A stretch of DNA of 64,000 nt from Arthrobacter sp. AQ5-05. GTDB taxonomy: Bacteria; Actinomycetota; Actinomycetes; Actinomycetales; Micrococcaceae. Each line of letters begins with the position of its first letter. Positions within the stretch are counted from its first letter, which is position 1. The DNA is taken from contig NZ_QMKQ01000001.1 in assembly GCF_003287975.1 (NCBI RefSeq), forward strand, positions 372,001-436,000, given 5' to 3'. Positions 23,918 to 57,945 of this stretch are shown here, piece after piece. The notes under the pieces were generated by a model, which saw only the letters and a list, made by a program, of their open reading frames with translations, ran no database searches and was not told where the DNA came from. Made by a program: the position numbers and the translations under genes.

Positions 23918-24958
23918 ATGGCGTTTTTCACCGGCCCGATCCCCATCCAGCCTCCATCCCGCTCCAACGGGGAGAACAAGGTCGTGCGCGTGGTCGCGCT
24001 CGGCGGCGGCCACGGCCTGTCGGCCTCGCTGTCCGCGCTGCGCCGGCTAACCACCGACCTGACTGCCATCGTCACGGTGGCCGACGACGGTGGCTCCTCC
24101 GGGCGCCTGCGCGAGGAGCTCGACGTGCTGCCCCCCGGCGACCTGCGCATGGCGCTGGCCGCCCTGTGCGACGACACCGACTGGGGGCGGACCTGGCGCG
24201 ATGTCATGCAGCACCGCTTCACCTCGAAACCCGGATCGAGCGCAGCGCTGGACCAGCACGCCGTGGGCAACCTGTTGATCGTGGCCCTGTGGGAACTGCT
24301 CAAGGACCCCGTGGCGGGGCTGCGCTGGGCCGGGGCCCTGCTGGGCGCCCGCGGCCAGGTGCTGCCCATGAGCACCACCCCGCTGACCATCACCGGGGAC
24401 GTGTTGCAGGAAGGTGCCGGGAGCGGGCTGGTGCAGCGCCGGCTCTCCGGCCAGGCGAAGCTCGCCGAGGCCGGCGAGAGCGCCCTGGTCTCCAACGTAC
24501 GCCTGGAACCGGCCGACGCCGCGGCCTGCACCGAGGCGCTTGACGCCATCGAGCTGGCAGATTGGGTCGTGCTCGGCCCGGGCTCCTGGTACACCTCGGT
24601 GCTGCCGCACCTCCTGCTGCCGGAAATGCGCGAGGGCCTGCAGCAGACCGCGGCGCGCCGGCTGCTGACCATGAACCTTTCCACCGACACCGCCGAGACC
24701 GGCGGGATGGACGCGGCAGCGCACCTGGAGGTCATCGCCAAGTACGCCCCGGACCTGCGCCTGGACGCCGTATTGGCCGACCCGACGACGATTTCGGACC
24801 ACGAGGCGTTCACCCACGCCGCCGCCCGGCTAGGCGCCCGCACCTTTTTCGGTAAAGTAGGGGTTGGTGCCGGACGCGCAGTCCACGACCCCTTGAGACT
24901 TGCCGCCGCATACCACGACGTGTTCACCACGTTCAGCACAGACGAGCCCAGCAGTTAG
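23918..24958 (+). CDS. yvcK: YvcK family gluconeogenesis / cell-envelope factor (CuvA)
   Basis: A 346-residue YvcK (CofD-like fold) protein. [17 protein letters not shown] is the N-terminal glycine motif, [14 protein letters not shown] the conserved DDGGSSGR block, and [15 protein letters not shown] the second ligand-binding block. Homologues bind UDP-GlcNAc-type sugars and coordinate central metabolism with peptidoglycan synthesis; in mycobacteria the protein is called CuvA. The ATG at 23918 lies 6 nt after rapZ with only a weak ribosome-binding site, so translation is probably coupled. whiA follows after 10 nt. Confidence 0.94.
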
Positions 24959-24968
24959 GAAACAATCC

Positions 24969-25949
24969 ATGGCACTGACGGCTTCCGTCAAGGACGAGCT
25001 GTCCCGGCTTGAGATTCGGAGATCCTCCGAGCGCAAGGCAGAAGTATCCACCATGCTGCGATTCTGCGGCGGCCTGCACATCATCTCCGGACGCATCGTT
25101 ATCGAGGCCGAGGTCGACCTCGCCTCCACCGCCCGGCGGCTTCGTGCCGCCATCGCCGAGGTCTACGGCCACGCCTCCGAGATCATCGTGGTTTCCGGGG
25201 GAGGGCTGCGCCGCGGCAATCGCTACGTGGTCCGCGTGGTCCGCGACGGCGAGGCCCTGGCCCGCCAGACCGGCCTGCTCGACGGGCGCGGCCGGCCGGT
25301 GCGCGGGCTGCCCTCGGTCATCGTCAACGGCTCCACCGCCGATGCCGAGGCCGTGTGGCGCGGTGCCTTCCTCTCCCACGGTTCGCTCACCGAGCCCGGG
25401 CGTTCCTCGGCACTGGAAATCACCTGCCCCGGCCCCGAGTCCGCACTGGCACTGGTCGGCGCCGCACGGCGCCTGGGACTGGTCGCCAAGGCCCGCGAGG
25501 TCCGCGGTGTTGACCGCGTGGTCATCCGCGACGGCGAGGCCATCGCCCAGCTGCTCACCCGCATGGGTGCCCACGACGCCTTGATGGTCTGGGAAGAGCG
25601 CCGCATGCGCAAGGAAGTGCGTGCCACCGCGAACCGGCTGGCCAACTTCGACGACGCGAACCTGCGCCGCTCGGCCCAGGCCGCCGTCGCCGCCGGCGCC
25701 AGGGTGGAACGCGCCCTGGAGATCCTGGGCGACGAGGTCCCCGAGCACCTCAAGTACGCCGGCGCGCTGCGCGTGGCGCACAAGCAGGCATCCCTGGACG
25801 AGCTCGGACGCATGGCCGAGCCGCCCATGACCAAGGACGCGATCGCCGGGCGGATCCGCCGATTGCTGGCAATGGCCGACAAAAGGGCCTCCGAACTGGG
25901 AATACCCGGCACCGAGGCCAGCGTTCCACTGGATATGCTCGAACACTGA
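24969..25949 (+). CDS. whiA: DNA-binding protein WhiA
   Basis: A 326-residue WhiA, the usual length. It has an N-terminal LAGLIDADG-homing-endonuclease-like fold that has lost catalysis (residues about 20-210) and a C-terminal helix-turn-helix part ([20 protein letters not shown]). It controls sporulation-septation genes in Streptomyces; in non-sporulating actinobacteria it is kept for cell division and growth control. TAGGAA lies 8 nt upstream of ATG 24969. It closes the rapZ-yvcK-whiA operon and is followed by sodA. Confidence 0.95.
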
Positions 25950-26024
25950 GCCCAAGGATTTTCCGCTGTTGCGCGGAGATGCAGTAACGAAGAAGAACGC
26001 ATCCACTTCTCGATGGGTGCCGAT

Positions 26025-26679
26025 GAGAATGAGGAGTCATTTTGGCTATTTATACCTTGCCCGAGCTGCAGTACGATTACGCGGCCCTGGAGCCGAACAT
26101 CTCGGCGCGGATCATGGAGCTGCACCACTCCAAGCACCATGCGGCCTATGTGGCCGGGGCGAACACCGCCCTGGAGCAGTTGGCCGAGGCGCGGGCGAAG
26201 GGCGAGTTCGGGAACATCCCGAAGCTGTCCAAGGACCTGGCGTTCCACCTGGGCGGGCACACGAACCACTCGATCTTCTGGAACAACCTTTCGCCGGAGG
26301 GCGGGGACAAGCCCGAGGGGGAGCTGGCTGCGGCGATCGACGACGCGTTCGGTTCGTTTGACGCGTTCCGTGCGCACTTCACGGCCGCGGCGATGAGCCT
26401 GCAGGGTTCGGGTTGGGCGTTGCTGGGCTTTGAGGGCCTGGGTTCGCAGCTGGTCATCGAGCAGCTTTACGACCAGCAGGGCAATGTGCCGGTGGCGACG
26501 ACCCCGTTGTTGATGTTGGACATGTGGGAGCATGCGTTCTATCTGGATTACGTGAATGTGAAGGCCGACTACGTGAAGGCGTTCTGGAACATCGTGAACT
26601 GGGCCGATGTCTCGGCGCGTTTCGAGGCGGCCCGCAAGGGTGCCGCGACGCTGGTCGTCCCGGGCAAGTAACAAAACCC
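26025..26679 (+). repeat. 655-bp direct repeat, copy A (carries sodA)
   Basis: Base-for-base comparison by eye with 55736-56390 finds no difference. The block starts at GAGAATGAGG, 17 nt before the TTG start, and ends 8 nt after the stop codon (AACAAAACCC). Flanks differ completely on both sides. The two copies are in the same orientation, offset by 29,711 bp. Confidence 0.95.
26042..26671 (+). CDS. sodA: Superoxide dismutase (Mn type), copy at the whiA-gap locus
   Basis: A 209-residue Fe/Mn-superfamily superoxide dismutase without signal peptide. Metal ligands are His in HHSKHHAAY, His in [13 protein letters not shown], and Asp/His in [12 protein letters not shown] at the second ligand and Gln in LYDQQGN (where iron-type mycobacterial SodA has His) point to manganese. 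Translation starts at TTG 26042 with GAGGAG 7 nt upstream. Codons end in G or T (GCG, TTG, GGT) far more than in neighbouring genes, which favour C. This is the place where sod is commonly found in Arthrobacter relatives. An identical second copy lies at 55753-56382. Confidence 0.96.
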
Positions 26680-26683
26680 CCTT

Positions 26684-27923
<1,240 letters not shown>

Positions 27924-54524: not shown

Positions 54525-54620
54525 GGAGCACGCGCCCTTTCATTGACTGCCGCCTGTAAATGATCATGCCATCCCGGGCTCCGTGACATGCCAAGGACGC
54601 GAAGAAGGCAGAATGGAAAC

Positions 54621-55100
54621 ATGGACACGGGTGATAACACGGCGCAGGACCTCAGCGTGGGCCAGGTGGCGGCCCGCTCCGGCGTCGCGGTCTCGGCCCT
54701 GCACTACTACGAGCGGGAGGGGCTGATCTCCTCCTGGCGCACCACCGGGAACCAGCGCAGGTTCGACCGCGGCGTGCTGCGGCGCGTGGCCGTGATCCGC
54801 GCAGCCCAGCGCGCGGGCATCCCGCTGCGCTCCATCGCCGAACTCTTTGCCGGGCTGCCGGCCGATGCGACCCCGCGCAAGGAGGACTGGCAGGCGGTCT
54901 CCGCGGCCTGGCGCGAGGACCTGCAGGAGCGGATCCACCAGCTGCAGTCGTTGCGCGACGGGCTGGGCGGTTGCATCGGCTGCGGCTGCCTGTCGCTGGC
55001 GGAATGCGGATTCGTGAACCCGAACGACAAGCTGGCCGACGATCGCGGCGGGGCCCTGTTGTTCCGGGAGGACATGAAATTTGACCTCAACCAAGGTTGA
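54621..55100 (+). CDS. soxR: Redox-sensitive MerR family activator SoxR
   Basis: A 159-residue SoxR. The MerR helix-turn-helix is LSVGQVAARSGVAVSALHYY with wing residues WRTTGNQRRFDR, followed by the dimer coiled coil (QERIHQLQSLRDGL). The [2Fe-2S] motif CIGCGCLSLAEC (C-x2-C-x-C-x5-C) near residue 122 is complete. Its oxidation by redox-cycling compounds switches the factor on. The ATG has CAGAAT 6 nt before it. A SoxR box lies over its own stop codon and in front of the flavin reductase gene. Confidence 0.95.
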   Translation: MDTGDNTAQDLSVGQVAARSGVAVSALHYYEREGLISSWRTTGNQRRFDRGVLRRVAVIRAAQRAGIPLRSIAELFAGLPADATPRKEDWQAVSAAWREDLQERIHQLQSLRDGLGGCIGCGCLSLAECGFVNPNDKLADDRGGALLFREDMKFDLNQG

Positions 55101-55111
55101 GGTTCTACCGT
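55081..55111 (+). promoter_or_regulatory. SoxR-dependent promoter with 19-bp spacer and SoxR box
   Basis: A -35 TTGACC (55081-55086) and a -10 TACCGT (55106-55111) are exactly 19 bp apart, the over-long spacing that MerR-type activators correct. Between them CCTCAACC-AA-GGTTGAGG (55085-55102) has perfect 8-bp arms and matches the known SoxR box layout (CCTCAA...TTGAGG). The promoter overlaps the last codons of soxR and reads into the flavin reductase and sodA copy B. Confidence 0.88.
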
Positions 55112-55175: not shown

Positions 55176-55694
55176 GTGCAGACCCAATTTCCGGCCGCCA
55201 CAGTCGCGGAGCAGTTTCGCCTCGCCTTCGGCAACCATCCCGCCGGCGTTGCCGTCGTGACTGCGACCGGATCCCGCGGACCGGTCGGCATCACCGCGTC
55301 TTCGCTGATCTCCGTTTCGGCAGATCCCGCCTACCTGGCCTTCAACATCGCCCGCCGCTCCGGTGCCGCCGAGGCCATCCTGGACTCAGGCACCATCGTG
55401 GTGCACCTTCTCACCGACCGCAACGCCGATGTCGCTGCCTTGTTCGCCGGGTCCGGGGAGGACCGTTTCGCGAAGTTGGCGGGGTGGGAATACCTTTCCA
55501 CCGGCGAGCCGCTGATCCACGGCCTCGGTGTGGCCATGCGCTGTGAGATCGAATCGCGGGTTCCCGCCGGCCCCGCAACCGTGGTCGTGGCCTCGGTCCT
55601 CGAGGTCATGGGCGGTCACTCCATGGCGACGCCGCTGGTCTACCACCGGCGCGGCTACCACAGCATCGGTGAGCACTCACGCCTCACCGCTTGA
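55176..55694 (+). CDS. Flavin reductase domain protein (FMN-binding split barrel)
   Basis: A 172-residue flavin reductase-like protein. NHPAGVAVVTATGS, GITASSLISVSADPAYLAFNIA and FAGSGEDRFAKLAGW are the conserved flavin-binding blocks. It would reduce FMN/FAD with NAD(P)H, or serve a two-component monooxygenase. GTG 55176 is about 14 nt after GAGAGG, rather far. The preceding SoxR promoter suggests induction by redox-cycling compounds. sodA copy B starts 58 bp after its stop. Confidence 0.88.
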   Translation: MQTQFPAATVAEQFRLAFGNHPAGVAVVTATGSRGPVGITASSLISVSADPAYLAFNIARRSGAAEAILDSGTIVVHLLTDRNADVAALFAGSGEDRFAKLAGWEYLSTGEPLIHGLGVAMRCEIESRVPAGPATVVVASVLEVMGGHSMATPLVYHRRGYHSIGEHSRLTA

Positions 55695-55735: not shown

Positions 55736-56390
55736 GAGAATGAGGAGTCATTTTGGCTATTTATACCTTGCCCGAGCTGCAGTACGATTACGCGGCCCTG
55801 GAGCCGAACATCTCGGCGCGGATCATGGAGCTGCACCACTCCAAGCACCATGCGGCCTATGTGGCCGGGGCGAACACCGCCCTGGAGCAGTTGGCCGAGG
55901 CGCGGGCGAAGGGCGAGTTCGGGAACATCCCGAAGCTGTCCAAGGACCTGGCGTTCCACCTGGGCGGGCACACGAACCACTCGATCTTCTGGAACAACCT
56001 TTCGCCGGAGGGCGGGGACAAGCCCGAGGGGGAGCTGGCTGCGGCGATCGACGACGCGTTCGGTTCGTTTGACGCGTTCCGTGCGCACTTCACGGCCGCG
56101 GCGATGAGCCTGCAGGGTTCGGGTTGGGCGTTGCTGGGCTTTGAGGGCCTGGGTTCGCAGCTGGTCATCGAGCAGCTTTACGACCAGCAGGGCAATGTGC
56201 CGGTGGCGACGACCCCGTTGTTGATGTTGGACATGTGGGAGCATGCGTTCTATCTGGATTACGTGAATGTGAAGGCCGACTACGTGAAGGCGTTCTGGAA
56301 CATCGTGAACTGGGCCGATGTCTCGGCGCGTTTCGAGGCGGCCCGCAAGGGTGCCGCGACGCTGGTCGTCCCGGGCAAGTAACAAAACCC
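55736..56390 (+). repeat. 655-bp direct repeat, copy B (carries second sodA)
   Basis: Same sequence as 26025-26679. It sits between the stop of the flavin reductase gene and a terminator hairpin. The 8-mer AAACACGA occurs at both outer edges (55730-55737 and 56394-56401), which might be a trace of the insertion event or chance. Confidence 0.95.
55753..56382 (+). CDS. sodA: Superoxide dismutase (Mn type), second identical copy
   Basis: The 209-residue product is identical to that of 26042-26671, including all synonymous positions and the TTG start with its GAGGAG ribosome-binding site. The upstream context is different: it follows the SoxR-controlled flavin reductase, so it would be read from a redox-induced promoter. 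The block ends 14 nt before a good terminator. The G/T-ending codon pattern is as unlike its neighbours here as at the first locus. A recent duplication or gene conversion is the likely origin; an assembly duplication cannot be excluded from sequence alone. Confidence 0.93.
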
Positions 56391-56403
56391 GAAAAACACG
56401 ATG

Positions 56404-56451
56404 GGGCGGGTATCGGATCGGTCATTGAACCGAATCGATACCCGCCCTTTT
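56404..56451 (+). terminator. Rho-independent terminator after sodA copy B
   Basis: GGGCGGGTATCG (56404-56415) pairs perfectly with 56436-56447 (12 bp) and is followed by TTTT. Probably the original terminator of the flavin reductase unit. Confidence 0.85.
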
Positions 56452-56496
56452 CCCTTGCCTCAGCCGGACCGCGCGGCGCATCGGAGACGTGGCGGA

Positions 56497-57945
56497 TCAG
56501 AAACGCGACGAGGAACCGGAACCGGAGAAACTGCCGCCGCTGGAACCGTATCCGGTGCTGCCGCCCGAGGACGAGCTGGCGCTGCGGCTTTCCTGCACGC
56601 GGGAAATCCCGGAGTGGTAGCCGGCGCTGAACCCCACGACCGACCAGAACCTGTTGGCCGGGTACACGGTGCCCAGGATGCTGTGGTTCGAGGAATAGCT
56701 GGAGCCGCGGGCCTCGGGGGTGCGCATGGCCGCACGCATCAGCTTCTCTTCTTCCTGGTCCTTCGCAAACTTCGCGATCACCGCCTCGGAGTACTCCTTG
56801 AGCATTCCGGTGAGCTGCTCGCGGACTTCGGCGATCTTGTCCAGTGCTTCCTCGGGGCTGATTTGCCTGGATTGCAGGGCGGAACCCCACTTTTCGATTT
56901 CGGCGGTCGTCATGGCCTTGAAGCGGCTCAAGCTCGTGGCGGACGGCGCCTCGGGTGCGGCATGCTTGCCGATGACCAGCGAATCGATCTCGGCCAGGTC
57001 CTCACGCAACGGGGCGAGCTGGCGTTCCCACGCAGCGGCCCAGCCCGAGCCCATGTTCAAGAGCATGTTCGTATCGGCGATCACGTCGTCCAGGCGATCC
57101 AGGTCGGTGGCCTTGGCCGCGTACTTCTCCATGAACAACGCGGTTTCCTTGCGTGTGTGCGACTTCGGGTCCATGTCGTTGGCCTGGTTGCCTTGCGCGG
57201 CGAGTTCGTTGTAGGCGACCATGAATCCGCGGTATTTTTCCAGCACCAGGCTGCCGTAGCGCGAGCCGTCGTTGATCGTCTTGGCGTTCAACTCGGTCGC
57301 TTCGAGGTCCAAGCTGACGTTCGAGTAGCTGGCGTTGCCGATTTCAAGGGCCTTCAGGGAGCGGTTCCGGTAGGTTCTGCGCACGTACAGGGCACTGCCG
57401 ACGCTGATGCCGCCGACCGCCAGGATGCCGGCGCTCCAGGCATAGAGCTTGGGGGATTTGTACCAGGGGCGGTTCATCAATTGCGCGGCACGCTCGACGC
57501 CGGCGATGGTCCCGTCGGTCCACTGGGCCTCCCGGTAGAGGTCCCTGGTGGCGCTTTGGATGTCATCGCGCTGGACGGGGGAGACCTTCCGGTCTTCACC
57601 GAAATACGTGCCCACCTGCCTGCCGGTGGGATCCAGCGCAAAGACGAACAACGAATCTGCCCACTTTTGCCCATCCGCGCTCAACCATTCAGGGTGCTTC
57701 TGGCGTGCGAAGCGCAGCACTTCCTCATTGAGGTTGTCGTGGTACTCGCCGTCCCGCGTGTAGATGGCGACCTTGGTCGGCTCATTGAACGAGATCTTCT
57801 TGATGGCCGGGACCAGCGTGTTCAGATCCAGTGTTCCGGCGGTGTCTTCGATGACGATATCCGTTGCCTGTGCGGCAAGTGCCGCCGGGGCACCGCCGAC
57901 CAGCAGCAAGGCACCCAGGGCCAGGATGGACAGTAACTTTCGCAT
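56497..57945 (-). CDS. Secreted/membrane TPM-like DUF5129 family protein
   Basis: A 482-residue protein with an N-terminal signal peptide (MRKLLSILALGALLLVGG, cleaved near ALAAQA), an extracytoplasmic domain of about 140 residues resembling TPM/DUF5129 (KVAIYTRDGEYHDNLNEEV), and one membrane helix near residues 170-188 (LYAWSAGILAVGGISVG). A long cytoplasmic helical region follows, and a Ser/Gly-rich tail (GYGSSGGSFSGSGSSSRF). The architecture resembles TPM proteins with a low-complexity Ser/Gly end. Function unknown; a role in membrane-protein or envelope upkeep is a guess from the domain. Confidence 0.75.
   Translation of the reverse strand: MRKLLSILALGALLLVGGAPAALAAQATDIVIEDTAGTLDLNTLVPAIKKISFNEPTKVAIYTRDGEYHDNLNEEVLRFARQKHPEWLSADGQKWADSLFVFALDPTGRQVGTYFGEDRKVSPVQRDDIQSATRDLYREAQWTDGTIAGVERAAQLMNRPWYKSPKLYAWSAGILAVGGISVGSALYVRRTYRNRSLKALEIGNASYSNVSLDLEATELNAKTINDGSRYGSLVLEKYRGFMVAYNELAAQGNQANDMDPKSHTRKETALFMEKYAAKATDLDRLDDVIADTNMLLNMGSGWAAAWERQLAPLREDLAEIDSLVIGKHAAPEAPSATSLSRFKAMTTAEIEKWGSALQSRQISPEEALDKIAEVREQLTGMLKEYSEAVIAKFAKDQEEEKLMRAAMRTPEARGSSYSSNHSILGTVYPANRFWSVVGFSAGYHSGISRVQESRSASSSSGGSTGYGSSGGSFSGSGSSSRF

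Follow-up and report, generated by a model that had tools for sequence, protein, structure and literature searches.

In Escherichia coli, SoxR raises the level of SodA through SoxS, and in Agrobacterium a superoxide dismutase may be under the direct control of SoxR. The accessible part of PMC11975290 contains no confirmation of the Agrobacterium case. The SoxR regulon of Streptomyces coelicolor (PMC4146615) comprises six genes, and the available text of that paper has no occurrence of “superoxide dismutase.” A comparison of Arthrobacter genomes (PMC4326396), in its available portion, lists two sodA genes together with one soxR gene in 1 of the 14 columns of a table, and its authors guess at a direct action of SoxR on superoxide defense. 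Another paper that brings SoxR and sodA together, in connection with a pigment (PMC13405713), was rejected as a precedent because its available part concerns the SoxRS response. With regard to duplicated genes that remain alike, long-lasting concerted evolution of protein-coding genes is rare in prokaryotes: the accessible part of Wang and Chen's survey (2018; PMC6053082) tabulates 26 genes, and sod is absent from the table. No description of a SoxR-linked, concertedly evolving sodA pair was found in the literature searched, which consisted mostly of papers available without a subscription.

The stretch of DNA analyzed here (the window; 64,000 nucleotides of Arthrobacter sp. AQ5-05) carries sodA twice, as a direct repeat.

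26025..26679, + strand: repeat copy 1, containing the sodA coding sequence (26042 to 26671, TTG start) plus 17 nt before and 8 nt after it, at the housekeeping whiA-sodA-gap locus.
55736..56390, + strand: repeat copy 2, containing the sodA coding sequence (55753 to 56382), the last gene of a soxR/flavin reductase/sodA cassette.

Alignment within the window showed that the two blocks are identical at 655 of 655 positions, with 0 bases of extension on either side, exactly as the original prediction had it (all positions equal and nothing beyond). Each block consists of 17 bases ahead of the TTG start, a 209-codon sodA with its stop codon, and 8 bases past the stop, and an exact match of this length is far beyond chance. 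Outside the block, the flanks are at the chance level of 19 to 39% identity (100-base bins, in-register alignment, ∼3 kb each way), and the sodA pair is the sole direct-repeat family found in the window (exact seeds of 20, minimum length of 40). The genome to which the window belongs, a draft of 4,647,352 bases in 116 contigs, contains exactly two sodA matches, both on one 554-kb contig. The product, identical for both copies, contains the Sod_Fe_N and Sod_Fe_C domains of Fe/Mn-type superoxide dismutases in a profile search, in agreement with the earlier naming of the gene, and matches PDB 8bhx over residues 2 to 201 (E = 4.2e-99). It is a predicted Fe/Mn-type superoxide dismutase.

The original prediction took copy 2 as a bare gene. 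In fact, soxR, a perfect SoxR box, and a flavin reductase gene precede copy 2, and this upstream region is the main functional clue to it.

54588..55100, + strand: soxR, redox-sensing MerR-family activator (TIGR01950 and PDB 2zhg matches), holding the cysteine stretch CIGCGCLSLAEC.
55081..55111, + strand: promoter-like layout around the SoxR box, TTGACC, 19 nt, TACCGT (hexamers assigned by eye).
55085..55102, + strand: SoxR box CCTCAACCAAGGTTGAGG, predicted operator, 0 mismatches.
55176..55694, + strand: flavin reductase gene (PF01613, E = 6.3e-33), downstream of the SoxR box and upstream of sodA copy 2.
56403..56451, + strand: terminator-like hairpin downstream of sodA copy 2, with a terminal TTTT run.
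56497..57945, − strand: DUF5129 gene, convergent with sodA copy 2 (PF17173).

The cassette SoxR scores 200.3 bits against TIGR01950 (cutoff, 116.9) and matches the SoxR structure PDB 2zhg (E = 7.8e-47) with the cysteines of CIGCGCLSLAEC aligned; this stretch was judged against what we take to be the [2Fe-2S] cysteine motif of SoxR. The true start of soxR is perhaps an internal ATG near 54621. The operator, which was searched for with what we assume to be the SoxR box consensus, is written inside the end of soxR, where its bases form the codons for LNQG and the stop codon. The next best box-like sites in the window have 2 or more mismatches, and the 11 sites with ≤3 mismatches are fewer than those in shuffled sequences (mean, 20.7), so that only the perfect box stands out. 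A spacer of 19 nt between the hexamers is typical of MerR-family promoters. Two sequence features expected of a SoxR operon were found, namely, a SoxR protein with the cysteine motif and a box in a promoter-like layout with this spacer, the −10 hexamer TACCGT being a poor match to the consensus. The flavin reductase gene ends 58 nt before sodA copy 2, and the segment from 56380 to 56460, past the end of sodA, folds at −35.7 kcal/mol (z = −4.95).

Perfect identity at two loci had been given three possible readings in the original prediction, namely, a recent copy, ongoing gene conversion, or an assembly error, and the same loci in sister strains had been named as a check. The comparison group consisted of 15 genomes of one genus, taken as Paeniglutamicibacter (Micrococcaceae), with the genome of the window as G000; G005 was taken as Arthrobacter sp. 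MYb227, G009 as Paeniglutamicibacter sulfureus As4PL, and G007 as P. quisquiliarum ABSL32-1. All 15 genomes have sodA matches, and a complete pair is present in 14; in the 15th (G004; 410 contigs), contigs break off inside sodA on the cassette side, the whiA side, and the gap side. In every one of the 14 complete pairs, copy 1 is flanked by whiA and gap and copy 2 lies behind soxR and the flavin reductase gene, with both copies on the same strand, in the same order, and 28,335 to 44,960 bases apart. The sharing of both loci by all 14 genomes implies that the duplication is older than the radiation of the genus. A duplication confined to this strain would readily explain identity that includes third codon positions; however, all 14 genus genomes with a complete pair have it at these two loci, yet the species differ at up to 0.60 of their synonymous sites. 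Recent duplication was rejected on these grounds and is, in our estimate, extremely improbable. The latest conversion between the two copies of this strain could well be recent.

Assemblies tend to fail at exact repeats, the draft of G000 is split into 116 contigs, and contigs end inside sodA in G004, G021, G043, G125, G235, and G244, all of which speaks for an assembly or scaffolding artifact. Nevertheless, the single-contig genomes G003, G013, and G014 have both copies with the same distinct flanks, and the two copies of G000 lie with those flanks on one 554-kb contig. An artifact was rejected on the strength of the single-contig genomes, and hardly any probability attaches to it. Of the three original readings, ongoing gene conversion is the favored one. 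The contig ends carry a practical warning that draft assemblies break at the sodA pair. In G125, for example, one contig contains soxR, the flavin reductase gene, sodA, and gap, and the whiA contig ends inside sodA; this arrangement is probably an assembly cross-join of near-identical copies or else a real rearrangement.

The surroundings of copy 1 suggest which of the two loci is the older.

24900..25949, + strand: whiA, upstream neighbor of sodA copy 1 (PF10298, PF14527, PF02650, TIGR00647).
26727..27923, + strand: gap, downstream neighbor of sodA copy 1 (TIGR01534 match starting at residue 65).

The true start of gap is probably further downstream than 26727; in most relatives, the profile match starts at residue 18 or later. 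Among 80 named sodA loci, 49 are of the whiA-sodA-gap type, 11 are immediately preceded by a flavin reductase gene, and 20 have neither. The whiA-gap position is therefore the commoner place of sodA and copy 2 the likelier newcomer, in keeping with the original view of copy 1 as the one at the conserved locus and copy 2 as probably derived. Between whiA and sodA (25950 to 26024), the window contains an element composed of TTTTCCGC, a few bases, and GCGGAGATGCAGTA. The TTTTCCGC...GCGGAGATGCAGTA element was recognized by eye upstream of copy 1 in 13 of the 14 genus genomes and differs from the region upstream of copy 2; it is possibly a housekeeping promoter or a small hairpin. The genes between the repeats include gap, pgk, tpiA, tkt, tal, a PGI-domain gene, and two SufBD-type genes. 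The first three are those whose loss by deletion between the repeats had been called probably lethal, and with the further genes present a deletion would indeed probably be lethal. Because core metabolic genes lie in between, strong selection against crossing-over deletions is to be expected, and this counterselection may help to keep both sodA copies.

Copies that had evolved apart since the origin of the genus should differ about as much as its most distant species do. Over 627 bases, the two copies of a genome differ at 0 positions in 7 of the 14 genomes and at 1, 3, 3, 3, 8, 9, and 19 positions in the others, with a within-genome pS of 0 to 0.108. Between species, pS averages 0.38 for either copy, with a maximum of 0.60, values comparable to the means for gap (0.41) and whiA (0.40). 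In the tree of the genus copies, the locus label requires 14 changes; the nearest relative among the 28 copies is the partner from the same genome for 24, with ties for 3 and another species for 1 (copy 2 of G014, which is nearer to G009 than to its own partner), and 0 of 180 variable sites are fixed by locus. The pattern is that of tuf-type concerted evolution: paralogs are nearer to each other than to orthologs in trees (24 of 28 copies), both loci are syntenic across at least five species (flanks in 14 of 14 genomes), and the copies are homogeneous at both synonymous and amino acid sites. Judged from these sequences, the sodA pair is under concerted evolution, for which gene conversion, the standard explanation of the phenomenon, is also the best one here. 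A longest-identical-run test on seven pairs, from which G014 was left out (1 mismatch), was significant in G007 (P = 0.009), G034 (P = 0.02), and G005 (0/20,000), and was not significant in G006, G003, G008, and G001; in G005, however, all 3 mismatches lie at the extreme end of sodA. We infer gene conversion, rather than read it off directly, because this tract evidence is weak and uneven (three of the seven pairs). The position of G014 copy 2 near G009, together with the 19 differences between the copies of G001, indicates that homogenization is intermittent.

The cassette itself is conserved in layout. All 14 genus cassettes have a gap of 51 to 70 nt between the flavin reductase gene and sodA and show the arrangement TTGA-box-TTCTA[GC]CGT. 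A SoxR box with ≤1 mismatch is present in 14 of 14 copy-2 stretches (a strict box in 11), compared to 0 of 14 copy-1 stretches. Genome-wide, the strict box was found in 12 of the 15 genus genomes, at the cassette in all 12; one further site exists in each of three genomes (G006, G009, and G014), so the cassette site is the only one in the remaining 9, among them the 4.65-Mb draft of the window, where it occurs once. The reversed pattern, used as a control, gave 1 site in each of 3 of the 15 genomes. The strict box was not found in G002, G005, and G011, which have a single-mismatch box instead. Between species, amino acid identity goes down to 59% for the flavin reductase and 66% for SoxR, and such divergence implies that the cassette is not a newcomer. 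Within 6-kb stretches, 11 of the 14 genus genomes have the DUF5129 gene beside copy 2; it was not found there in G002, G007, and G012. A second SoxR scoring above the cutoff is encoded elsewhere in 6 of the 15 genomes, including G000, where a gene of this family lies outside the window (contig C1, 310056 to 310472) and encodes a protein 44% identical to the cassette SoxR.

Concerted evolution could be real and the two copies could nonetheless serve dosage only, with copy 2 in practice outside SoxR control; the flavin reductase gene that stands between the box and sodA leaves room for this. The box and its promoter-like layout in 14 of 14 cassettes, the uniqueness of the strict box in 9 of the 12 genomes with at least one, the short gap (58 nt) before sodA, and the terminator-like hairpin after it argue the other way, and we consider dosage alone unlikely, with perhaps more to be said for it than for any other alternative treated here.

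Another possibility is that a local sodA was inserted separately behind the flavin reductase gene in each species, as opposed to the conversion of an old pair. Units of soxR, box, and flavin reductase gene that lack sodA do exist, in G032 (strict box) and G031 (one mismatch), and in the flavin reductase tree units of this kind are interspersed with sodA-bearing ones. The sodA-presence label changes 7 times in that tree and 5 times in the SoxR tree; several long branches were flagged, and one of the 7 changes is false, contributed by the G004 unit, which was scored as having no sodA (its contig ends at the sodA start). The sodA-less units and the mixed tree indicate that the cassette may have had more than one origin between genera. 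Against insertion within the genus, the constant position of sodA, 51 to 70 nt behind the flavin reductase gene in all 14 cassettes, would require many insertions at one point. Repeated insertion is thus quite improbable, and conversion of an old pair is preferred.

The same arrangement extends beyond the genus. Six further genome records contain the soxR-flavin reductase-sodA cassette and a second, whiA-gap sodA: G034 and G083 (taken as Zhihengliuella salsuginis) of group g21; G091, G186, and G160 (taken as Arthrobacter agilis DSM 20550) of group g52; and contigs labeled Vibrio cholerae 35D. Their sodA pairs are 98.4 to 99.7% identical at ungapped positions, and the tree joins each of the six by genome. 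The copies of G034 are ∼828 kb apart and still 99% alike, so distance is no simple explanation of homogenization. The contigs of the record labeled V. cholerae 35D look actinobacterial and fall near the A. agilis group (g52) in the tree; the record is probably a mislabeled or contaminated genome. Two other g52 genomes (G235 and G244) have a cassette contig and a whiA-side contig that both end at the same point inside sodA. In two g21 genomes (G106 and G141), whiA and gap are adjacent without sodA and the cassette sodA is the only copy found; the pair is therefore not obligatory. A family search, which was rough, included fragments, and scored at most two candidates per genome, gave two sodA matches in 26 of 245 genomes. 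Partial sodA-like stretches, short of full second copies, are present in G066, G096, and G180 and are perhaps decayed second copies. No soxR was found in the second-locus stretches of G021 (up to 9 kb) and G043 (4 kb), both of which have contig ends inside sodA. Finally, in Brachybacterium sp. EE-P12 a perfect SoxR box begins 78 nt ahead of one sodA, and a second sodA lies elsewhere; these copies, which were left out of the tree, are 93% identical (583/627).

The Microbacteriaceae provide a natural control. Seven genomes of Microbacterium and Agromyces were selected because they contain a flavin reductase-sodA unit; all have the whiA-sodA-gap copy as well, and within each of the seven the sodA copies are only 74.3 to 80.6% identical. 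In a tree with five of these pairs, none joins by genome: the cassette copies of all five group on a single branch (94/96), and those at whiA-gap fall into an Agromyces and a Microbacterium branch. Such divergence means that the likeness of the sodA pair is not forced by the enzyme. SodA is certainly well conserved, at 94 to 99% identity to the protein of the window within the genus, and selection on the nucleotide or protein sequence might be thought to keep the copies alike without recombination; however, synonymous sites differ freely between species and hardly at all between copies, and the Microbacteriaceae pairs have diverged. Pure sequence constraint was rejected for both reasons and is barely credible.

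We consider it highly probable that the pair is old, that recurrent gene conversion has maintained it, and that it supplies one SodA from a basal and a SoxR-controlled promoter. From the sequences we infer the regulation, the recombination mechanism, and selection for one enzyme from two promoters. An old duplication would have given a SoxR-controlled cassette a second sodA as its last gene, the housekeeping sodA having stayed between whiA and gap. Recurrent homologous gene conversion between the direct repeats, going back to a time before the diversification of the genus, would have kept the coding sequence and the ribosome-binding site the same, or almost the same, in each genome, with promoters and flanks remaining different. 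Copy 1 would provide a basal, constitutive level of SodA, and SoxR oxidized by redox-cycling compounds would directly induce copy 2 along with the flavin reductase, so that one and the same SodA would come from two switches. Losing the pair by deletion would be costly because of the core metabolic genes that lie between the repeats. A broader version, in which a stress operon and a housekeeping locus each hold a promoter for sodA and selection, acting through conversion, has kept the coding sequences joined throughout the history of the genus (“one protein, two promoters”), and also in two other Micrococcaceae groups, with the Microbacteriaceae pairs having diverged into two isozymes, strikes us as tentative, with the chances slightly below even. 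If the proposal is true, regulation has been duplicated while the enzyme has in effect stayed a single gene, and the contrast with the Microbacteriaceae makes it testable when duplicates stay identical and when they become isozymes.

Compared with the E. coli SoxRS system, in which SoxR likewise ends up raising SodA, the route suggested here would not pass through SoxS, the box lying directly before the flavin reductase-sodA unit; the cassette is, as a prediction, a pointer to a direct link from SoxR to sodA. The S. coelicolor SoxR regulon, as described in the available text (PMC4146615), resembles the present case in its few targets and its palindromic promoter site and differs in that superoxide dismutase is here the last gene of the unit. 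The linkage, the operator, and the identity of the copies described here are absent from the Arthrobacter comparison, in its available portion (PMC4326396). As with tufA/tufB and the other genes in the accessible part of PMC6053082, the sodA copies are separated duplicates at conserved loci that are alike within a genome, synonymous sites included; unlike those genes, they sit behind visibly different upstream regions, so that concerted evolution here joins copies with different upstream control.
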